64,000 bases of DNA, taken from the NCBI RefSeq assembly GCF_017751145.1, contig NZ_CP046640.1, positions 1,158,137 to 1,222,136 on the forward strand. The letters run 5' to 3'. This DNA is from Iocasia fonsfrigidae. Its GTDB lineage: Bacteria > Bacillota > Halanaerobiia > Halanaerobiales > DTU029. Position 1 is the stretch's first letter, and every line of letters starts with the position of its first letter. Below, piece by piece: positions 429-29,962 of this stretch. A program made the translations under genes and the position numbers. A model generated the notes under the pieces. It was not told the DNA's origin, made no database searches, and saw nothing but the letters and a program-made list of their open reading frames with translations.

Positions 429-3002
429 ATGTATGAAGCAATTAAAATTAAAATGAAAAAATTAAGAGAAAAAGTTCGTCATCATGAATATAAATACTAT
501 GTTCTAGACTCACCTGAAATATCTGATGCAGAGTTCGATCAATTGGTGAGAGAGTTACAAAATTTTGAGGAAGAATATCCAGAATTAATAACCCCAAATT
601 CACCTACTCAACGAGTGGGAGGAGAACTGCTTGATAGCTTTGAGAAGGTGGAACATACAGTACCCATGCTCAGCTTGAGCAATGCCTTTAATGATGGCGA
701 ACTAAGGGAATTTGCATACAGGGTTTATAAATTAGTCGGAACAAAGGATATTGAATTTGTAATTGAACATAAAATAGATGGATTATCAGTAATACTTACA
801 TATGAGAAAGGATTACTTACAGTAGGGGCTACCCGTGGTAATGGTGTTATTGGGGGAAATGTCACCGAGAATATAAAGACCATCAGGTCTATACCATTGA
901 GTCTTCCTGAAGAACTTTCCGCTGAAATAAGAGGAGAAGTCTATATCAGTAAGTCTGATTTTGAGTATATCAACAATAAGAGATTTGATGAAGGAGAAGA
1001 GCCTTTTGCCAATCCCAGAAATGCTGCAGCTGGTTCCATCAGACAACTGGATCCGCGTATTGCTGCAGAAAGATCATTATCAATGCTTGCCTATGATTTG
1101 GTCAGTATTGAAGGACAGGAGTTTGATACACATACTGATGCAATGGAATTTCTCAAGGGAATGGGGTTTAAGGTAAACTGGTATCACAAATGTAAGAATA
1201 TTGATGATGTTATTGAATTATGTAATCAATGGACAGAGGAGAGGGATAATCTTCCCTATGAAATCGATGGACTTGTTATAAAAGTAAATAATCTCGACTT
1301 AAGAGAACAGCTTGGTACTACTGCCAAGAGTCCGTGCTGGGCAATAGCTTTTAAGTTCTCTTTTCATCAGAAGACCACAGTTGTCAAGGATATTATCATT
1401 TCTGTAGGGCGTACTGGAGAATTGACCCCTATTGCAATTCTGGGTCCTGTTTGTCTGGAAGGATTTACAGTCAGCAGGGCAACTTTACATAATGAAGATG
1501 AGATAAAAAGAAAAGATGTCAGGATTGGTGATCATGTTTTGGTGCGGAAAGCTGGAGGAGTTATCCCAGAGGTAGTAAAGATTATAGAAGAAAAAAGGAA
1601 TGGAAGTGAAGAGGTCTTTAAAATGCCGGATAGGTGTCCTGAGTGTGGTGCTATGGTTTTAAGACAGGGAGAAGGACCCTTTATCTGGTGTATTAATAAT
1701 TCTTGTATTGCTCAGCGTCGGGATTGTATTTTACATTTTATATCACGGAAGGCTATGAATATTAAAGGAGTTGAATACGAATTAATTGATCAACTTATAG
1801 AAGGAAGTATAATTGAGGATTATGCAGATCTTTACTTACTAACTATTAATGATCTTATAAATATTGGAAATTTGAATTACCAGTTAGCGATAAATATTAT
1901 TAATGCTATAGAAAAAAGTAAAACGAGACCACTACAGAATCTTGTATTTGCTTTGGGAATAAAACAAGTTGGAGTAGGGATTGCCAGAATTTTGGCAACA
2001 AAATTTAATTCAGTTGAAGAATTATCTCAGGCTAAGTTAGCCGACCTAGAGTCAATAGATGGAGTTCATCCAACTTTAGCCAATAATATTATTAATTTCT
2101 TTTCTCTACCTCAAAATCAGAGAGTTATAGAAAAATTAAAAGATGCTGGAGTTATCATGAATAATAAGTTAAGAAGAAAAAATAATGAAAAATCCTCTAA
2201 ATTAGAAAATATATTTAAATATGAAATAAAAGAAGTGAAATACAAATTTATTAGAGTTCATATAGAGTTATTATTAGATGATAATAACTATAGTATTTTT
2301 TATAAAGAGTTTAAATACTACTTATTAAGAAATACATTAACAGAGGATGGGTATAATTGGATTACTAAATTATTAGAAGGTAAAAAGATTGATGATAAAA
2401 AGCGTAACTATTTAAAAAATTCATTAAAAAGGATTTTTACTAATGAAGATCATTTAAAAGGATTAATTGGAGAATATATCCTAAGTTTTTATTATAGAAA
2501 TATTGAAGAAAATTATTTGTGGGATTATGGACCTAAAGGAAGGAGTTCAGCTGAACCAGGGATTGATTATATTGTATTTACTGGGGCAGAAAATAATATC
2601 AAAGATATAAGATTTACTGTTTGGGAAACTAAAACAACAGAAAGTAATGTAAATAATAGAGCAAGTGAAATTTATTCTTTTTTCGGTAAGAATGGTAGTT
2701 TTGATGAGAATATTGATTATGAAATTAAAGCAATCCAGGAGTTGTTTAAAAACAAGGAGAAGAGTAATTTGAAGAAAGTAGTAGCAAAACTTCCTTATTA
2801 TGTATTAAATAGAGATAAAAACCTCAGAATAGGAGCATCTATTATATTAAAGGAAGATACAACTACTCTTAATACTTTAAAATCTTTTGAAAAATGTTTT
2901 CCTGAATTAACTAAGGAACAAAGAATAGTAAAATTTATATTTTTTTTGTTGTTAAATAAGGTTATGAAAGATTTGGTGAGAGACATATGGAAAACATTAT
3001 AA
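429..3002 (+). CDS. NAD+-dependent DNA ligase fused to a HamA-like (DUF1837) nuclease
   Basis: The first ~580 residues are a LigA-type ligase. In order they are domain Ia (YYVLDSPEISDAEFD, about 24-38), the adenylation domain with nucleophile K115 in EHKIDG, E170 in RGEVY, K285 in EIDGLVIK and K309 in WAIAFKF, then an OB fold, a four-cysteine zinc finger (C403, C406, C421, C426) and helix-hairpin-helix repeats (about 500-570). Where LigA normally has a BRCT domain, residues ~590-857 instead resemble HamA: GEY (E682), GID (D713) and WETK (E733, K735) form a PD-(D/E)XK signature. Housekeeping LigA is about 670 aa, so this is a real C-terminal exchange. Two ligase positions are unusual: the RGDG motif reads RGNG (N138) and the following GED reads GGN. 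The start is ATG with GAGG at 416-419. It overlaps the helicase gene by 16 bp. Inferred role: nuclease subunit of a Hachiman system carrying a nick-sensing or nick-sealing module. Confidence 0.8.
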   Translation: MYEAIKIKMKKLREKVRHHEYKYYVLDSPEISDAEFDQLVRELQNFEEEYPELITPNSPTQRVGGELLDSFEKVEHTVPMLSLSNAFNDGELREFAYRVYKLVGTKDIEFVIEHKIDGLSVILTYEKGLLTVGATRGNGVIGGNVTENIKTIRSIPLSLPEELSAEIRGEVYISKSDFEYINNKRFDEGEEPFANPRNAAAGSIRQLDPRIAAERSLSMLAYDLVSIEGQEFDTHTDAMEFLKGMGFKVNWYHKCKNIDDVIELCNQWTEERDNLPYEIDGLVIKVNNLDLREQLGTTAKSPCWAIAFKFSFHQKTTVVKDIIISVGRTGELTPIAILGPVCLEGFTVSRATLHNEDEIKRKDVRIGDHVLVRKAGGVIPEVVKIIEEKRNGSEEVFKMPDRCPECGAMVLRQGEGPFIWCINNSCIAQRRDCILHFISRKAMNIKGVEYELIDQLIEGSIIEDYADLYLLTINDLINIGNLNYQLAINIINAIEKSKTRPLQNLVFALGIKQVGVGIARILATKFNSVEELSQAKLADLESIDGVHPTLANNIINFFSLPQNQRVIEKLKDAGVIMNNKLRRKNNEKSSKLENIFKYEIKEVKYKFIRVHIELLLDDNNYSIFYKEFKYYLLRNTLTEDGYNWITKLLEGKKIDDKKRNYLKNSLKRIFTNEDHLKGLIGEYILSFYYRNIEENYLWDYGPKGRSSAEPGIDYIVFTGAENNIKDIRFTVWETKTTESNVNNRASEIYSFFGKNGSFDENIDYEIKAIQELFKNKEKSNLKKVVAKLPYYVLNRDKNLRIGASIILKEDTTTLNTLKSFEKCFPELTKEQRIVKFIFFLLLNKVMKDLVRDIWKTL

Positions 3003-6000
3003 ATAATCATAATATTGATAAAATATTATCTGAAATTAATAATCGTAATGATTTTTTAGAGTTAATAGAATATATTTTTTACTATGACATGGAATTACTT
3101 ATAAAAGATATATCTATTAAAGAAAGTGAACTTAAAGATGATATTAATAAGTTAAAATTACTTGAGAAAATATCAATATATATTTATTCCAATTATACAA
3201 ACGAATTATTTAATAAAAATCAGGATTTAAGGGATAAGGCCTTGGAACTAGTTGCGTTAACATTTGAAAGAGCATCCATATATTTTAAACATATGGATTT
3301 AAATATTATTGATGGGCGAGATATAGTTTTAAAAAGATTAAAATATTGCTTTAGGTCTTCAATTGCATATTCTCTAGCGGGTAATTCTCCTAATAGTATT
3401 TTTATGGCAAATAAAATAATAAAATTATTTAAATATATAGATAAACATGAGGGGTATTATGATAAAGATTTGATCACATTGTATCGTTTTTCAAGTTATA
3501 TTCTAAATAGAAAATTTTCTCTTAGCACTTCCAAATTGTCTAAAAAACAATCATCGATACTTTTTAGCTTAACAAGATATATTAATACTGGAAATCAAGA
3601 TCATTATTTTATGGCAATTAATGATTTGCAAAGTTTAATTAGTAGTAAATTAGAAAAGTGTCAGAGTGAACAGTTTTGGATATTAAGAAATATATATCTT
3701 GTCTTACAAAAATTTTATGATAATTGTGTTTGGACTGTATTATATAATATATTTGATAATAATTATATAAAACAACTAATTAAATCACGACCGCCAATCC
3801 TTGAATTATGGCCAAATCAACTCAAAATAGTAAATAACCCGAATAGTTTTTTGAATGTTGATTTTAAAAATAGGATATTAATAAACTTACCAACTAGCGG
3901 AGGAAAGAGTTTGTTAGCTGAGTTTGCATTGATAAAGGAACTAGAGAAAAACAATAATAAAAAGTGTATATATATAGTCCCAACAAATGCTCTGGTATAT
4001 GAAGTATATAAACGGTTACAGGAAAGATTTAGAAGACTAGAATATAATGTGCTTAACATACCTGGTGGATATGAAGATCACGGGGAAAAATTATTTCAAG
4101 AATATAGTGTTTTAATAACTACACCAGAAAAAATGGACACAATAATTAGAAACAATATACGAAATAATTTTCTGGATGATGTTTCTTTGGTTATATTTGA
4201 TGAATTTCATAAAATAAGTGACAAAAATAGAGGATGGGTTATTGAAAGTTCTTTATGGTATCTTATAAATAGCGATAGTTATAAAGACATAAAAATAATG
4301 TTGCTATCTGCAATTATAGATAATGGAGAAGTGATATTAGATTGGGTTAAAGAAACTGAAGATTTAAATGAAAACATATGTGATAATTGGAAACCGACTT
4401 TACAGATAAAAGGTATTGCTAAATATGAATATATTAAAAATAAATATGGTCAATGGGTGTCCGTACCCAAAAAACATAAGTATTATAAAGAAGCTTATAA
4501 GTGTCATATAGCTACTGGATTTTTAAAATATTTTCAGAAAGATTTAGAAAAGAGAACAATAAAATTATTTGATTTTCCAAGATATCATTATAAATCTAGT
4601 AATAAATTGGTTAAAAAAGAAAATATAAATTATGAAAGCTTTGTGATGGGCATATCACAAAAATTGGAAAATACAGGGGGTAATCTGATATTTTTTAATA
4701 CAAAAGGTGATGTAGAATCGTTTGTAAGAAGTTATGAGCCTTATGTACCAGAAAAAGTTAAAATAAGTCAAGAAATTAATAGGCTAATTAATTATTTTGA
4801 AAAAAGGTTAGGAAAAGAGCATTTATTAATAAAGGGATTAAAAAAGGGTATTGCATATCATCATGGTAGTTTGCCAATTGATATGAGAGAGGCCTTAGAA
4901 GATTATTATTCAAAGGGGTATATAAAAACATTAGCAGCTACAACTACACTAGCAGAGGGTGTTAATTTTCCTATTCAAAACTTTATTTATAGTGGTTTAA
5001 AATATGTTGGTCAAAAGACTATAGACATAGCTGACTTTAAAAATATTGCTGGTAGAGCTGGAAGGGCTTATCAAAGTACATATGGGCAAATTATTTTTGT
5101 TAAATTTTATCCTTATAGTGTAAAAGAAGATTATCTAGAATACGAAAATTATGATAATAATGTAACAAGCTCTTTACTTAGTGATGAAAAAATTTTTGAA
5201 ATTATAGATGAAATGAACAAAAAAAATAGTGAAGATATCGAGGACTTTATAGACCAAGCAAGTAATAACGGGTTTATAAAAACATTATTACTTTTTTATA
5301 ATTCTATATCTGAGAATGAAAATTTGTTGGATAGAATATTTAGCAATGCTTTATTCTCCAAACAATTACAACAAGATAAGCTAAAAAATCTTTTACATTC
5401 AAGTAAAAAAGTATATCATTATTTTGATAAAAAACCGTTAAGAATCAGGGAAAAAGTGCAGATTAGTGGATTGTCTTTCTATTCTTACTATATTGTGCAA
5501 AAATTAGCCAAAGATATAGTTGATAATTTAGATTATAATATCCGTAATAATCTAAAAATGGAAATGTTAATAAAACAAGAGGCATTTATACAAATACTTA
5601 GTTTAAAAGAGTTTAATAAAATGAAAGTAAGAAGAAGTACACCTGCTTCGAAAAAAATTGTTATTGATGATTATAGTTTATTTTTAGACTGGACTCAGAC
5701 AAATATTAATGTACCTCAACTTAGTGAAAAATATTTTTTTAAGGTTAAACAACCTTATAGAATAAGTAGAATTACAGAATATATAAAGGAGATGTATGAA
5801 TATAAACTATCATGGGCATTAAGTATATTATCAAGAATAATAAATGAAAATTTAAGTCTGGATATATCATCAAACATAATTAACTTTATTAATAAATTAA
5901 GTCAATTTGTCAAATATGGTTTATATTCTACTACTGCACTAGACCTTGTGAAACTTGGTTTTAATTCTCGTGATACAATAAATGAATTAGCTGAATTCAT

Positions 6001-6487
6001 AGATAATAATTATGAATATTTCAAATTAAAAGAATTAGGAAATATAATTAGTACCCTTGATCATAACATTTTATCAGACAAATTAGATAGTATTACTGAT
6101 TATGAGTTAAGAAAGTTCATAACAATAACCAACAATTTAAAAATTATTTCTAAACAAATTGAAAAAGACAAAAAGGTAAAAACTAAAATTGCAGGCACAA
6201 AATATCATTTGTGTAGACTAGAAGAAAAACAAAATATATTAGATAAAATAAAAAAAAATTCCAAAAGAATTGTATTAATTCCTGAACCAGATAATTACTA
6301 TGATAAATATGCTGTTGAAGTTTATTATAACCAAACAAAGATTGGTTATCTTTCTAGAAATATAAATGAAGAGGTGGCATATTATCTAAGTATTTATACA
6401 CCTTATACAATTGATTTAATAAATATTAATGTAGTTAATTTAAATAAGTATATTGAAATTAAAGTAAAGATAAATTTTGAAGTCTAA
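2987..6487 (+). CDS. hamB: HamB-like superfamily 2 helicase with C-terminal HIRAN domain
   Basis: An 1166-aa helicase whose start lies inside the end of the ligase-nuclease gene, indicating translational coupling. Visible motifs are Walker A (LPTSGGKS, near residue 302), the DEFH box (near 405), LSA (motif III), TTTLAEGVNFP and the arginine-finger motif GRAGRAYQ (near 688), the pattern of Ski2/HamB-type helicases. The N-terminal ~280 residues show no motif I recognise. Residues ~1067-1166 (AGTKYH, then PEPDNYYDKYAVEV and IGYLSR) match a HIRAN domain, a fold known in HLTF/Rad5 to bind single-stranded 3' DNA ends. In Hachiman, HamB scans DNA and releases the HamA nuclease on damaged or phage DNA. 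The gene is extremely AT-rich (8 G+C in bases 3001-3060), unlike the ligase half of its partner. Confidence 0.8.
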   Translation: MENIINNHNIDKILSEINNRNDFLELIEYIFYYDMELLIKDISIKESELKDDINKLKLLEKISIYIYSNYTNELFNKNQDLRDKALELVALTFERASIYFKHMDLNIIDGRDIVLKRLKYCFRSSIAYSLAGNSPNSIFMANKIIKLFKYIDKHEGYYDKDLITLYRFSSYILNRKFSLSTSKLSKKQSSILFSLTRYINTGNQDHYFMAINDLQSLISSKLEKCQSEQFWILRNIYLVLQKFYDNCVWTVLYNIFDNNYIKQLIKSRPPILELWPNQLKIVNNPNSFLNVDFKNRILINLPTSGGKSLLAEFALIKELEKNNNKKCIYIVPTNALVYEVYKRLQERFRRLEYNVLNIPGGYEDHGEKLFQEYSVLITTPEKMDTIIRNNIRNNFLDDVSLVIFDEFHKISDKNRGWVIESSLWYLINSDSYKDIKIMLLSAIIDNGEVILDWVKETEDLNENICDNWKPTLQIKGIAKYEYIKNKYGQWVSVPKKHKYYKEAYKCHIATGFLKYFQKDLEKRTIKLFDFPRYHYKSSNKLVKKENINYESFVMGISQKLENTGGNLIFFNTKGDVESFVRSYEPYVPEKVKISQEINRLINYFEKRLGKEHLLIKGLKKGIAYHHGSLPIDMREALEDYYSKGYIKTLAATTTLAEGVNFPIQNFIYSGLKYVGQKTIDIADFKNIAGRAGRAYQSTYGQIIFVKFYPYSVKEDYLEYENYDNNVTSSLLSDEKIFEIIDEMNKKNSEDIEDFIDQASNNGFIKTLLLFYNSISENENLLDRIFSNALFSKQLQQDKLKNLLHSSKKVYHYFDKKPLRIREKVQISGLSFYSYYIVQKLAKDIVDNLDYNIRNNLKMEMLIKQEAFIQILSLKEFNKMKVRRSTPASKKIVIDDYSLFLDWTQTNINVPQLSEKYFFKVKQPYRISRITEYIKEMYEYKLSWALSILSRIINENLSLDISSNIINFINKLSQFVKYGLYSTTALDLVKLGFNSRDTINELAEFIDNNYEYFKLKELGNIISTLDHNILSDKLDSITDYELRKFITITNNLKIISKQIEKDKKVKTKIAGTKYHLCRLEEKQNILDKIKKNSKRIVLIPEPDNYYDKYAVEVYYNQTKIGYLSRNINEEVAYYLSIYTPYTIDLININVVNLNKYIEIKVKINFEV

Positions 6488-7282: not shown

Positions 7283-7774
7283 CTACTCTTCCTTTTTATT
7301 CATTGTGTTTTCAATATATTCCTCATATTCAGGAAAAGCCTTTTTAAGTTTAATAGTAAGATAACCTCGCATGTCCTGGTCACCTTTCTTATATTGTTCT
7401 TTTAAAAAGTCCAGAATTTTATATAATGTAGCTTTATCGTCTTCCTCTGGTTTACTAGGATTAAATCTATCATTTAACTTATTTAAAGCAGCTTTAATTT
7501 CTACATCAGATAAATATTTTACTGCTTCCATAATTATATTTTCAGGAGATTTCCTCATTTCACCTTTTCCTTTTTTAATCCATTCTTCTCTAATCCCATA
7601 TTCTTTAGATATATTATGTATGAGTTGATCTGATATAGTATTTGTGCCATTCTCAATATTACCTATAGTAGAACGGCTTATTTTAATTCTATTTGAAAAT
7701 TCTTTTTGAGTTAATTCTAATGTCTTTCTTAAATACTTTATTCGACTTGGTATTGAGTTTTTTATCTTATTCAT
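7283..7774 (-). CDS. XRE-family transcriptional regulator (copy 1)
   Basis: A 163-aa DNA-binding protein. Residues ~9-65 form a Cro/C1-type helix-turn-helix (LTQKEFSNRIKISRSTIGNIENG). The C-terminal ~90 residues are helical and charged, with no enzyme motif. The start is supported by AAGGTGAT six bases upstream of ATG. It is a paralog of the regulator at 27757-28209: both share the WxKxGKGxM segment after the HTH and an LxxL..KKxF end. Both are read away from a divergent promoter that leads into a duplicated leader cassette. It probably represses that promoter, and likely itself, through the inverted repeat at 7808-7854. This is an inference from position. Confidence 0.85.
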   Translation of the reverse strand: MNKIKNSIPSRIKYLRKTLELTQKEFSNRIKISRSTIGNIENGTNTISDQLIHNISKEYGIREEWIKKGKGEMRKSPENIIMEAVKYLSDVEIKAALNKLNDRFNPSKPEEDDKATLYKILDFLKEQYKKGDQDMRGYLTIKLKKAFPEYEEYIENTMNKKEE

Positions 7775-7807
7775 TTTAAAATCACCTTATTTAAGCACTT
7801 TATTTAC

Positions 7808-7854
7808 TAAAAAAGACAAAAAATAAATAATAAGCCTTGACAATGTCTTTTTTA
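7808..7854. promoter_or_regulatory. Candidate XRE operator (inverted repeat)
   Basis: TAAAAAAGACA at 7808-7818 is repeated inverted as TGTCTTTTTTA at 7844-7854, an 11-bp perfect dyad whose right arm lies in the -35/-10 spacer of the forward promoter. Position and symmetry suggest binding by the divergent XRE protein. Confidence 0.5.
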
Positions 7855-7865
7855 AGCATTATAAT
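7837..7865 (+). promoter_or_regulatory. Sigma-A type promoter of the leader cassette / sugar operon
   Basis: TTGACA at 7837-7842 and TATAAT at 7860-7865 are both perfect consensus boxes with a 17-base spacer. They point rightward into the leader cassette and the ABC transporter operon. The second cassette has the same arrangement. Confidence 0.75.
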
Positions 7866-8036
7866 ATACTTGTAATATAAGCTAAATAGAAGTAGTATAT
7901 CTGATCTTCAAAAAAGTATTAAGTAAAAATCATTGCAAAACGAGTCATTATAAAAATGTATTCTGATTTAACAAAACAACAAAGCTAATTATTTCTACAA
8001 TTAATTTTAGTTCCTACAAGATAATAACATAAAATG

Positions 8037-8390
8037 ATAGAAAGGAGGTATCCATCTATTAATCCAGGGTAAAAAGAGAACAGCTGCCAGCTGTTCTGTT
8101 AGCTTATTCCATTAATAATTATACCATATGGACAGGTTTTTGTAAATTTGTGGTAGAGGTGTTTTGCTGGAGTATGGTTCCCGGGAGGGGTTGCTGTGCA
8201 AAGAGGAGAGGAACGACAGGAAGGTTTACCAGAATATCAACCGGGAGATAAGATCTACAAGTTATTTAATCACGATATAGTAATGATAAGGGGAAAAGAT
8301 GAGGAGTTTATTATAAGAATTGCTAAATTGAAAAAGAATAGAAGTGTTTAACCTGGGGCCCTGGGCCGGGAATTTATTTTTCCGGTCCAT
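8037..8390 (+). repeat. Duplicated leader cassette, copy 1 (direct repeat of 28362-28713)
   Basis: About 350 bp almost identical to 28362-28713. In order it holds an isolated extended Shine-Dalgarno (TAGAAAGGAGGT), a hairpin (AGAACAGC 8077-8084 with GCTGTTCT 8090-8097), a GTG-initiated 51-codon reading frame, and a GC-rich terminator-like hairpin (GGGCCGG 8363-8369 with CCGGTCC 8382-8388). The two copies differ mostly by synonymous changes, one whole-codon indel, and loop or G-U changes in the hairpins, so both peptide and RNA structure appear constrained. Confidence 0.85.
8196..8351 (+). CDS. Conserved 51-aa leader-cassette peptide (copy 1)
   Basis: GTG start preceded by GGGAGGGG at 8183-8190. 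The peptide starts MQRGEERQEG and contains LPEYQPGDKIYKLFNHD, IRGKDEEF and a basic KLKKNRSV tail. I recognise no family. The copy at 28522 encodes the same protein one residue shorter; differences are conservative (M/I, R/K, A/V) or synonymous, which is the mark of a translated frame. No membrane segment or signal peptide is visible. It lies between an XRE-linked promoter and a terminator-like hairpin ahead of the ABC operon, so a regulatory role is plausible but unproven. Confidence 0.65.
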   Translation: MQRGEERQEGLPEYQPGDKIYKLFNHDIVMIRGKDEEFIIRIAKLKKNRSV

Positions 8391-8454
8391 TTTTAATATG
8401 GAGATATTGCCGTCTAGCGATATTATTTTTAAAAAAAGAAGGAGGATGTTTTTG

Positions 8455-9720
8455 ATGAGAAAGTATTTAGAAAGGTTTTATTCAATTACTATCTTTAGTC
8501 TTGTGTTTATGCTAATAGGTGCTGTATTTTCTTTAAATGTATATGCTAAACCAGTAGAGGTTTCTCTCTGGCATTATTTTGAACACGAGGCGGAGGCGCT
8601 GGAAAAGGTAGTAGCTGATTATAATGCTATGCAGGATGAGATAGAAGTTATTCCTACCTTTGTTTCTCGTGAAGAGTTAATGAATCAGTATACAATCGGG
8701 GCAATCTCCGGTGAATTACCTGATATCGGTATGGTAGACTCACCCAATATGGCTTCATTTGTTGCTTTAGATGTTTTTGCTGATATTACTGAATATGTAG
8801 AAGAATGGGATGATCTTCAGTATTTTTACGATGGTCCCTTAAATAGTACTATGGATGTTGAAGGCAAGATCCACGGGCTGCCAAATAACTCAAACTGTTT
8901 AGCTTTATTGGTAAACATGGATATTTTGGAAGCGGCCGGGTTTGACGAACCGCCTACTACTTGGGATGAATTCTATGAAATAGCAGCAGCTACTACAGAT
9001 CCGTCTAATTCTATTTATGGTTTTTCCATGAGTGCAGTAGGTAATGAAGAGGGGACCTTCCAGTTTATACCCTGGCTATATTCCTCTGGGGCTTCTGTCA
9101 GCTCTTTAGTTTCTGAAAAAGCCATTAGTTCATTAGAATTATTGACCAATTTAGTTAAAGAGGGCTATATGAGCAGAGAGGTCATTAACTGGGGACAGGC
9201 TGATGCCTATAATGCTTTTGTAGCTGGTAAAGCAGCTATGCTGGAATCAGGAACATGGCAAATTGCAACAATGGATGAAGATATAGATGATGCCTTTGAT
9301 TATCAATATACCCTTCTCCCTAAGGGTGAGGAGTATGCCTCTGTTATAGGTGGAGAAAATTTTGGGGTTACTGTTGCTGCCAGTGATGTTGAGGCCTGTA
9401 CAGATTTTATAAAATTCATGCAGACAGCAGAGAATAATGCCAACTGGTGTGAAATAGCAGGCAAATTACCTGTTCGAAGTGATGCTGCTGAATTGAAAGA
9501 CTTCTGGACAGAAGATGAAAGATATGCAGTATTTACTGATGCAATGAACTATGCTGTAGCCAGAGGCCCACACCCAGAGTGGCCTATTATCTCTGAAGCA
9601 ATCTATTCAGCCGTACAGGCGGCCTTGATTGGGGAAAAGACTCCAGAACAGGCAATGAAAGATGCAGCAGCAATTATTAATCCAATTCTAGCAGAGATAC
9701 CTGTTGCTGGAAGTAATTAG
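8455..9720 (+). CDS. Sugar ABC transporter substrate-binding protein
   Basis: A 421-aa extracellular solute-binding protein of family 1 (MalE/UgpB type). It has an N-terminal signal peptide (basic MRKYLERF, hydrophobic stretch, cleavage near VYA-KP) and the usual early motif of the family (VEVSLWHYFEHEAEALEKVV). The start at 8455 is preferred because GGAGG lies 9 bases upstream; an in-frame ATG at 8446 is too close. The open frame back to 8344 has no ribosome site and overlaps the leader cassette. It is first in an operon with two permeases and a GH31 glycosidase, so the substrate is probably an oligosaccharide. No ATPase gene is present, so a shared MsmX-type ATPase is likely, possibly the one at 33097. 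Confidence 0.85.
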   Translation: MRKYLERFYSITIFSLVFMLIGAVFSLNVYAKPVEVSLWHYFEHEAEALEKVVADYNAMQDEIEVIPTFVSREELMNQYTIGAISGELPDIGMVDSPNMASFVALDVFADITEYVEEWDDLQYFYDGPLNSTMDVEGKIHGLPNNSNCLALLVNMDILEAAGFDEPPTTWDEFYEIAAATTDPSNSIYGFSMSAVGNEEGTFQFIPWLYSSGASVSSLVSEKAISSLELLTNLVKEGYMSREVINWGQADAYNAFVAGKAAMLESGTWQIATMDEDIDDAFDYQYTLLPKGEEYASVIGGENFGVTVAASDVEACTDFIKFMQTAENNANWCEIAGKLPVRSDAAELKDFWTEDERYAVFTDAMNYAVARGPHPEWPIISEAIYSAVQAALIGEKTPEQAMKDAAAIINPILAEIPVAGSN

Positions 9721-27756: not shown

Positions 27757-28209
27757 TTATTCTTCCAGCAATTCACTAAAAGACTTTCTTAACTGAATAA
27801 TTATATAGCCCTGAGTATCTCGGTCAGCCTGCTGATAGGTTTCCAGTAGTGAATGTAATAAACGGTAAAATGTTGCTTTTTCCTTATTTTGATCTTGTAA
27901 TTTATTTTCCATCAATTCCAAAAAAGCTTTTTCTGTTGCAGGAAGATCATTTATAAGATTAATTGCTTGCTCAAGAATTTCTTTATTATTTTTCTTCATA
28001 GGCCCTTTCCCTGTTTCCAACCATTTTTTATTAATGCCGAAAACAAGTGAAATAGCATTTAATAATTGACTTGTCGGATTACTATGTCCACTTTCTATTT
28101 GTCCTATTGTGGACCGTCCAAAAGAAATTTTATCTGCTAAATCCTGTTGGGTTAAATCATAAATTTTTCTTAATTGCTTGATATTACTTATTATTATGTC
28201 GTTATTCAT
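27757..28209 (-). CDS. XRE-family transcriptional regulator (copy 2)
   Basis: A 150-aa paralog of the regulator at 7283-7774. The helix-turn-helix is LTQQDLADKISFGRSTIGQIESG (about residues 18-40), followed by the shared WLETGKGPMKK segment and a helical C-terminal part. The start is set at 28209 because AAAGGAGCTC lies before this ATG; the longer open frame to 28272 runs through the divergent promoter. It is divergent to promoter 28250-28278 and the second leader cassette, mirroring copy 1. It probably binds the 14-bp inverted repeat at 28257-28312. Confidence 0.85.
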   Translation of the reverse strand: MNNDIIISNIKQLRKIYDLTQQDLADKISFGRSTIGQIESGHSNPTSQLLNAISLVFGINKKWLETGKGPMKKNNKEILEQAINLINDLPATEKAFLELMENKLQDQNKEKATFYRLLHSLLETYQQADRDTQGYIIIQLRKSFSELLEE

Positions 28210-28249
28210 AATTTGAGCTCCTTTATATAAAAAGAGGTAAAAATTTTCC

Positions 28250-28278
28250 TTGACAATGTTAAATATAAACAATATAAT
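28250..28278 (+). promoter_or_regulatory. Sigma-A type promoter of leader cassette 2
   Basis: TTGACA (28250-28255), 17-base spacer, TATAAT (28273-28278): perfect boxes, as in copy 1. Both promoters also share the TTGACAATGT context. Confidence 0.75.
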
Positions 28279-28312: not shown

Positions 28313-28361
28313 AAATGATTTGAATTAAAAAAAGCTAGAGTTATCCCTGGCTCTTTCTAAA

Positions 28362-28713
28362 ATAGAAAGGAGGTATCCATCTATTAATCCAGGGTAAAAA
28401 GAGAACAGCCGCCAGCTGTTCTGTTAGCTTATTCCATTAATAATTATACCATATGGACAGGTTTTTGTAAATTTGTGGTAGGGGGTGTTTTGCTGGAGTA
28501 TGGTTCCCGGGAGGGGTTGCTGTGCAAAGAGAAGAGAAATTGCAAGGTCTACCAGAATATCAACCGGGAGATAAGATCTACAAGTTGTTTAATCACGATA
28601 TAGTAATAATAAGGGGAAAAGATGAGGAGTTTATCATTAAAATTGTCAAGTTGAAAAAGAATAGAAGTGTTTGACCTGGGGCCCTGGGCCGGGAATTTAT
28701 TTTCTCGGTCCAT
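28362..28713 (+). repeat. Duplicated leader cassette, copy 2 (direct repeat of 8037-8390)
   Basis: It has the same order as copy 1: extended Shine-Dalgarno TAGAAAGGAGGT, the AGAACAGC/GCTGTTCT hairpin with the base change confined to its loop, a 50-codon GTG frame, then a GC-rich hairpin (GGGCCGGG 28686-28693 with CTCGGTCC 28704-28711, held by G-U pairs). It separates an XRE-linked promoter from a catabolic operon, as in copy 1. The two direct repeats could recombine and delete the ~20 kb between them, including the whole CRISPR locus. Confidence 0.85.
28522..28674 (+). CDS. Conserved 50-aa leader-cassette peptide (copy 2)
   Basis: GTG start with GGGAGGGG upstream. It begins MQREEKLQGLPEYQPGD and ends KLKKNRSV. 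Nearly identical to the 51-aa peptide at 8196. The single length difference is a whole codon and most base changes are synonymous or conservative, supporting translation. The family is not recognised. Confidence 0.65.
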   Translation: MQREEKLQGLPEYQPGDKIYKLFNHDIVIIRGKDEEFIIKIVKLKKNRSV

Positions 28714-28771
28714 TTCTTATGCCTAGAAAATATTCTGTTGGTTATTGTATTTAACAAAGGGGGTTTTTATT

Positions 28772-29962
28772 ATGAAAATAACAAAGGTTGATGTAATGCA
28801 GGTAGTGACTACAGAGTCAGATGGTTCTGTACGAGAAGATTGGCGGCCGGTAATTTGCCGGATTTATACTGACGAAGGAATATATGGCGATGGTGAGGCA
28901 GCACTAGCTTACGGGATTGGGGCACCAGCGGCTTATGGAATGGTCAAGGATTTAGCCAGACTTATTATAGGGATGGATCCCTTAGACAATGAAGTTATTT
29001 GGGATAAACTATATAAAAGAACATTTTGGGGACAAAATGGCGGTCCGGTAGTATTTGCTGGTATATCAGCTTTAGATATTGCACTCTGGGATATTAAAGG
29101 AAAGTATTTTGATGTTCCCGTTTATAAAATTTTAGGCGGCAAACGTCGTGATAACTTGCGTACATATGCAAGTCAGCTGCAATTTGGCTGGGGGCCAGAA
29201 TTTCAAGAACTAAGTAAAACTGAAGATTATGTTAAGGCCAGTAAAAAGGCGGTAGAAGAAGGTTATGATTGTATAAAAATAGACTTTTTCACTTATGACC
29301 GTGATGGTCGAGCTTTCACTGATGAAGATATGACTCGTTTACGTCCTCAATATTATATCAATCTGGTTGAGGAACGTATAGCAGCTGTTCGTGAAGCTAT
29401 TGGTCCAGATGTTGATATAATTATGGAGAATCACTCTAATCCTGATGCTAATAGTGCAGTGCAGCTTGGTAGAGTAGCTCAACAATATAATATTTTTTAT
29501 TTTGAAGAACCAAACACCCCTACACCCAAGAAAGCAAAATATATATGTGATAAGTTAGAAATGCCAATTGCACATGGAGAAAGAGTTTATTCCCGCTGGC
29601 AGTATGCACCATATTTTGAAAATCAGTCTGTTCAAGTTATCCAACCCGATCTTGGAAATACCGGTGGTCTGACTGAAGGCAAGAAAATTTGTGATATGGC
29701 CTATACTTATGATGTTTCTGTCCAGGCGCATGTCTGTGCAAGTCCAATCTCAACAGTTGCGGCATTGCATCTTGAAAGTGTGATACCAAACTTTGTGATT
29801 CATGAACACCATAGAATTAATCTTTGTGATTATAATAAAAAATTGTGTATACATGATTATCAACCTAAAGATGGTAAATATAAAGTGCCAGAACTACCAG
29901 GTTTAGGTAATGAGTTTTCGGAATTTGCCTTAACTCATTGTGAAAAAGTTACAGTTGAGTAA
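28772..29962 (+). CDS. Mandelate racemase/muconate lactonizing family acid-sugar dehydratase
   Basis: A 396-aa enolase-superfamily enzyme. The N-terminal capping domain is followed by the barrel with the metal ligands in IMENHSN (near residue 218), YFEEPN (near 244) and AHGERVY (near 269), and a general base region QAHVCASPI (near 315). The length and the N-terminal pattern GEAALAYGIGAPAAYGMVKDLA resemble acid-sugar dehydratases of the gluconate/galactonate/RspA group. The exact substrate is not deducible. ATG at 28772 is used, with AAAGGGGG upstream. It follows leader cassette 2 and precedes an APC permease that could import its substrate or a linked amino acid. Confidence 0.85.
   Translation: MKITKVDVMQVVTTESDGSVREDWRPVICRIYTDEGIYGDGEAALAYGIGAPAAYGMVKDLARLIIGMDPLDNEVIWDKLYKRTFWGQNGGPVVFAGISALDIALWDIKGKYFDVPVYKILGGKRRDNLRTYASQLQFGWGPEFQELSKTEDYVKASKKAVEEGYDCIKIDFFTYDRDGRAFTDEDMTRLRPQYYINLVEERIAAVREAIGPDVDIIMENHSNPDANSAVQLGRVAQQYNIFYFEEPNTPTPKKAKYICDKLEMPIAHGERVYSRWQYAPYFENQSVQVIQPDLGNTGGLTEGKKICDMAYTYDVSVQAHVCASPISTVAALHLESVIPNFVIHEHHRINLCDYNKKLCIHDYQPKDGKYKVPELPGLGNEFSEFALTHCEKVTVE

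Follow-up and report, generated by a model that had tools for sequence, protein, structure and literature searches.

The locus raises the question of whether an XRE regulator, a perfect promoter and a peptide-coding leader that recur together ahead of two unrelated operons form a reusable regulatory module and, if so, how such a module might work. In the window—that is, the whole 64-kb stretch of DNA analysed here—the arrangement occurs twice, and an XRE gene, a perfect operon promoter, an inverted repeat, a peptide frame and a terminator are found in each copy, as the sequence-only reading had proposed:

7283-7774, minus strand: XRE (HTH_3) regulator of copy 1, 163 aa (PF01381, E 5e-12)
7809-7853, around the -35 box and spacer: inverted repeat AAAAAAGACA (7809-7818)/TGTCTTTTTT (7844-7853), candidate XRE operator on the basis of its sequence
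7837-7865, plus strand: operon promoter of copy 1, TTGACA-N17-TATAAT, 12/12
8037-8394, plus strand: repeated leader cassette, copy 1, ~357 bp
8077-8097, minus strand: terminator-like hairpin followed by CTTTTT, copy 1, just past the minus-strand promoter
8118-8146, minus strand: putative promoter of copy 1 directed toward the XRE gene, TTTACA-N17-TATAAT with an extended -10 (TGG)
8172-8190, plus strand: GGTTCCCGGGAGGGGTT, ribosome-binding region for the leader peptide, which as a candidate antiterminator could pair with the left terminator arm
8196-8351, plus strand: leader protein of copy 1, 51 aa, GTG start, PGDKIYKLF family
8353-8394, plus strand: CCTGGGGCCCTGGGCCGGGAA and intrinsic terminator of copy 1 (terminator itself 8362-8394)
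8446-9720, plus strand: ABC solute-binding protein (PF13416), first gene of operon 1, which runs on to 13645
27757-28211, minus strand: XRE regulator of copy 2
28250-28278, plus strand: operon promoter of copy 2, 12/12
28257-28270/28299-28312: 14-bp perfect inverted repeat, copy 2
28361-28718, plus strand: repeated leader cassette, copy 2
28402-28422, minus strand: terminator-like hairpin, copy 2
28443-28471, minus strand: putative convergent promoter, copy 2
28522-28674, plus strand: leader protein of copy 2, 50 aa
about 28685-28718, plus strand: leader terminator, copy 2
28772-29962, plus strand: mandelate racemase/muconate lactonizing family enzyme (enolase superfamily), first gene of operon 2, with a permease next

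The two cassettes are 94% identical across ~354 bp, a similarity with sharp edges and far above chance. Nine perfect promoters of the TTGACA/TTTACA-N17-TATAAT type lie in the window, four of them within the two modules; the perfect operon promoter had been recognized before, whereas the perfect promoter that the cassette itself carries, directed the opposite way on the minus strand, had been overlooked. The frame of the solute-binding protein, which begins at 8344 in the list of open reading frames, was corrected to a start at 8446 or 8455. Elsewhere in the window (429-6487), two long plus-strand frames encode 857 and 1166 aa; the longer has the look of a DEAD-type helicase (PTSGGKSLLAE, DEFH) and possibly forms a defence pair with the shorter.

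The genome—a single contig of 3.93 Mb—holds seven cassettes (78-100% identity), all of them preceding transport or catabolic genes. Searching related genomes for the cassette and its peptide yielded copies in five further genomes of the same order, with 16 cassettes in the family that contains Halanaerobium (four of the five genomes are named as Halanaerobium); these genomes were retrieved by DNA match, and terminator, peptide and promoter searches added copies within them. Across the resulting 23 loci (six genomes, a single order), the notion of a reusable leader that separates unrelated operons from a promoter under control held up: the orientation is constant, and the cassette precedes a gene or operon, mostly for catabolism or transport, in the same orientation except at L033 and L034, where the contig ends and the downstream sequence is not seen. 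The parts of the module, their order and their co-conservation can be read from the sequences directly. Downstream genes, several of which were named by reading their sequences rather than by family searches, include ABC and TRAP transporters, an alanine:sodium symporter-type carrier, arginine deiminase, aminoacyl-histidine dipeptidase, threonine dehydrogenase and a LacI-led sugar operon. In the window's own family, seven other genomes were without a real cassette copy, and a terminator-motif scan of 84,980 species genomes, the window's own genome left out, returned eight matches, all in Halanaerobium. Matches in two genomes (G004 and G007) lay inside coding genes and were rejected as chance.

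The minus-strand promoter (TTTACA/T-N17-TATAAT, with an extended -10) lies within the leader, opposes the operon promoter and points across it toward the XRE gene. It is present at 18/18 loci with an intact XRE gene and at 0/5 loci where that gene is absent (L025, L031, L034), truncated (L033) or frameshifted (L027, with a spacer of 14), the loci being related and hence not 23 independent trials. Counting TTTACA as a valid -35 box, it scores 12/12 at most intact loci and 11/12 at L032, L066 and L129 (TTTACT); the spacer is constant in length (17 nt) and variable in sequence, and at most loci the XRE start lies 207-420 nt downstream of the promoter. The operon promoter, too, scores 12/12 at most loci. 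Since the minus-strand promoter accompanies every intact XRE gene, we conclude that it is likely the main XRE promoter; and since it lies inside the operon leader, the XRE mRNA and the operon transcript should overlap, by roughly 120-450 nt. Thus—while the XRE gene and the operon promoter are present as described—the earlier view of a divergent promoter does not fit the probable XRE promoter, which is convergent with that of the operon. On this layout the module would be a convergent switch with overlapping transcripts, and not a plain divergent regulator plus leader; the sequence-only interpretation is in this sense partly supported.

An exact motif search of 38 genomes recovered the known loci, an extra half-module at L020, one unrelated promoter and, as a new module, L128; L129, a version with a small XRE, was found with one mismatch. 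L130 was rejected, being the promoter that ordinarily serves a dihydrolipoamide dehydrogenase-like gene. L020 (G000:C1:1136396-1137484) carries two leader 5′ domains in tandem, each with a minus-strand promoter, one for an XRE of ~154 aa and the other for an XRE of 72 aa; the 72-aa XRE has a homologue in L129, where a hydantoinase/permease-like operon is preceded by a similar layout. At L024 (G000:C1, about 3791770-3792000), a ~200-bp insertion separates the leader hairpin hp2 from the minus-strand promoter, and beyond the operon comes a reverse transcriptase/maturase-like gene.

The 5′ half of the leader contains short helices whose arms pair better with their own partners than across loci (96% versus 73% for hp0, 100% versus 62% for hp2, and 90% versus 82% for a loop-to-downstream helix). 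The helix limits behind these covariation counts and the G-U counts were chosen manually on the sense strand; the pair counts make no use of a MAFFT alignment in which the hp2 of the 5′ domain was misplaced. Sense and antisense folding energies are nearly equal; G-U pairs, however, are kept in the sense orientation only, a bias that would favour folding of the sense RNA. Between two H. saccharolyticum genomes, leader/intergenic DNA is 90% identical, versus 67.5% at third codon positions of the gene that follows, which argues that the leader is under selection. The leader had no match to a curated Rfam riboswitch or cis-regulatory RNA family.

Read on the minus strand, hp2 (in copy 1 the very hairpin listed as terminator-like) has CTTTTT behind it in each window copy and is scored as a terminator; the T-run is found in some copies only and is absent from several others. 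Where present, such a terminator would give rise to a countertranscript of about 40 nt, with the XRE mRNA arising as its read-through. On the plus strand, the intrinsic terminator of the leader lies downstream of the peptide frame, and a terminator-like hairpin is found 3′ of the leader at nearly all loci, including L087 and L088, where its sequence differs. A conserved element, CTGGGGCC, precedes the terminator outside its hairpin and is likely, on suggestive folding evidence, to be used in a competing helix with the ribosome-binding region GGTTCCCGGGAGGGGTT of the peptide. In copies of this genome, pairing between the Shine-Dalgarno (SD) region and the terminator is predicted at -22 to -29 kcal/mol, compared with -16 to -18 for the hairpin; its significance reaches no more than z of about -1 to -3, the pairing being weak in several Halanaerobium copies and missing from several copies. 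Both sides of it have changed between L028 and L030, orthologues in two strains. With the overlap region occluded or left free, equilibrium folding gave most leaders a termination probability of about 0.9, and folding therefore does not support countertranscript-driven attenuation.

Further elements were seen in the leader. TAGAAAGGAGGT (8037-8054 and 28361-28378) is nearly complementary to the 3′ end of the 16S rRNA, so that a countertranscript would carry the anti-SD-like CCTCCTTTCTA; it has no start codon behind it. A motif resembling AAAA-GNCNGAATCTTTA recurs in L024, L026-L030 and L066, positioned between the minus-strand promoter and the peptide start or terminator, and is absent from the window copies. 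A second leader frame after the conserved AAAGGAGG of the 5′ domain was considered and rejected, most copies having no proper start codon behind that element.

Taken together, these features lead us to favour, with a probability of about 0.62, a reusable chromosomal switch that would combine XRE repression, mutual interference and countertranscription between convergent promoters, and attenuation at the leader terminator. Promoter activity, interference, attenuation and the role of the protein are what we infer from the layout. An operon-specific XRE would bind the inverted-repeat operator and repress the operon promoter, while its own transcript, begun inside the leader, would run back over the leader and the operon promoter. 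The two facing promoters would interfere mutually, the first 120-450 nt of both RNAs being complementary; the operon leader would fold into its conserved hairpins, encode the 46-51-aa protein and end at the intrinsic terminator. In the off state, XRE and countertranscription would silence the operon, with any leak halted at the terminator. A signal that releases XRE would then allow strong sense transcription to silence the XRE gene and outrun the countertranscript, and part of the RNA would read through the terminator—perhaps when the ribosome-binding region of the peptide pairs with the left terminator arm and not with a ribosome, such that attenuation may be gated by ribosomes at the peptide start.

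The leader protein (46-51 aa) could itself contribute. PGDKIYKL is invariant among 12 intact copies and dN/dS is 0.03-0.3 in most pairs; within this genome, 7/7 frames are intact with values of 0.10-0.27 and one noisy pair at 0.46. By this coding constraint, the leader peptide is a translated protein under purifying selection. Its predicted structure comprises a helix plus a beta hairpin (core pLDDT about 90), and it is charged, without a hydrophobic segment. More than half of the cassettes in the Halanaerobium family have lost the peptide while their promoters and leader RNA stay, and every genome of that family with peptide-less cassettes retains exactly one intact peptide copy elsewhere, a hint of a role in trans; all 13 credible matches of a peptide search across the class lie within cassettes. 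Selection, the single retained copy, the confinement to cassettes and the confidently predicted fold all speak for a trans-acting regulator, binding RNA or XRE, that serves all cassette operons and is leader-encoded for feedback. Against it, searches of Pfam, NCBIfam, PHROGs, PDB sequences and PDB folds gave no credible homolog or fold match (a few weak CBS-domain fold matches were set aside as not credible), and we regard such a regulator as a tentative possibility; it is compatible with the convergent switch and would add to it. Bolder still, and correspondingly speculative, is the proposal of a new class of chromosomal convergent switch, in which a single protein encoded in a leader would govern, in trans, the attenuators of many catabolic operons unrelated to one another, so that each operon would have a private repressor as well as shared RNA-level control.

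Alternatively, the minus-strand promoter might merely express XRE with a long untranslated leader, its overlap with the operon transcript being incidental and the leader alone serving as a translation-gated or ligand- or protein-sensing attenuator. The sense-only G-U pairs, the pairing of SD region and terminator, and the terminators that L031 and L034 retain despite having no XRE would all be expected on those terms. What makes an incidental overlap rather unlikely is that a facing XRE promoter lies in the leader of every intact module (18/18), whereas none was found at three XRE loci that this genome has outside its cassettes.

Sequence comparison of the regulators bears on how the module spread. 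The XRE proteins of the two window copies and L020 are 38-44% identical to each other (16-28% to other XRE types), while their cassettes are 94-95% identical, indicating that the cassette was shared or homogenised separately from the regulator; cassettes also occur with three XRE types and in several copies per genome. This disparity is what a short mobile or repeat element (MITE/REP-like) sitting in promoters by chance would leave, yet at every testable locus the cassette is oriented and placed the same way with respect to XRE and operon, diverged copies retain their functional signals, and the frame is under coding constraint. Neither terminal inverted repeats nor random placement were found for the cassette, viral, phage and plasmid collections held no match to it, and the broken frames expected of a mere repeat were not found among the seven copies of this genome; we therefore rejected this very improbable origin. 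The description of the module as movable accordingly stands in the sense of duplication or recombination only, since hallmarks of a mobile element were not found. A type I toxin-antitoxin pair, suggested by an opposing promoter near a small protein, was rejected as scarcely credible, because the peptide is charged and not a hydrophobic toxin, the antisense transcript begins upstream of the frame and leaves it uncovered, and the peptide is lost while the other parts stay.

We found no description of the cassette module in the part of the literature that was searched and, to our knowledge, switches built on convergent promoters and countertranscripts come mainly from plasmids and phages. Phages 186 and P2, cited in PMC4519249, pair a small repressor with convergent early promoters that cause transcriptional interference; the module shares the small repressor and opposing promoters, but these phages have no leader protein or attenuator, and the module lies outside any prophage. 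Replication genes of pT181/pIP501-type plasmids possess countertranscript-driven attenuators, in which an antisense RNA starts within the leader and a terminator closes that leader, as proposed here, except that here the antisense transcript would double as the regulator mRNA. In attenuators of the trp and erm type, a short translated frame precedes a terminator and the SD region can pair with a terminator arm, as in the module, whose product, however, is conserved as a protein and shows no obvious codon run or stall motif.

The closest parallel is prgX/prgQ of the Enterococcus faecalis plasmid pCF10 (and traA/mD of pAD1), in which an HTH regulator and an operon are expressed from face-to-face promoters, the layout predicted here. 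The convergent pCF10 promoters PQ and PX lie about 220 bp apart (PMC7117660), the leader holds a peptide frame, the Anti-Q countertranscript and a terminator, IRS1, about 380-400 nt in (PMC7117660, PMC8265641, PMC5515443), and the layout works as a switch (PMC7117660, PMC8265641, PMC5515443, PMC4519249). Overlapping transcripts, a leader peptide and a leader terminator downstream of its frame would be common to both systems; the overlap here would be 117-445 bp compared with a promoter distance of ~220 bp. For a short countertranscript with its own U-tract, the window copies offer a terminator-like candidate, the T-run being absent from several others. PrgX is an RRNPP-type regulator with peptide-binding repeats, whereas the XREs here (72-171 aa) have no such domain, and family searches of those of 72-163 aa gave HTH_3-type domains only; the pCF10 leader encodes an exported hydrophobic pheromone, whereas the cassettes encode the conserved charged PGDKIYKLF protein; and in place of a conjugative plasmid we find a single 3.93-Mb contig without a plasmid match, with chromosomal catabolic operons as targets, several copies per genome and three XRE types. 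As XRE type, peptide and targets differ, the module is, by this comparison of layouts, a functional analogue of prgX/prgQ and not a member of that system.

In this order, then, the putative convergent switch is a multi-copy chromosomal part set over carbohydrate, TRAP, amino-acid and arginine operons and combined with three kinds of XRE. If confirmed, the leader protein would represent a new small protein family, and the nutrient operons would be individually repressed, possibly bistable, and joined by a shared attenuator. The intact, peptide-less and XRE-less copies would, in that case, provide a clean natural series for dissecting the mechanism.
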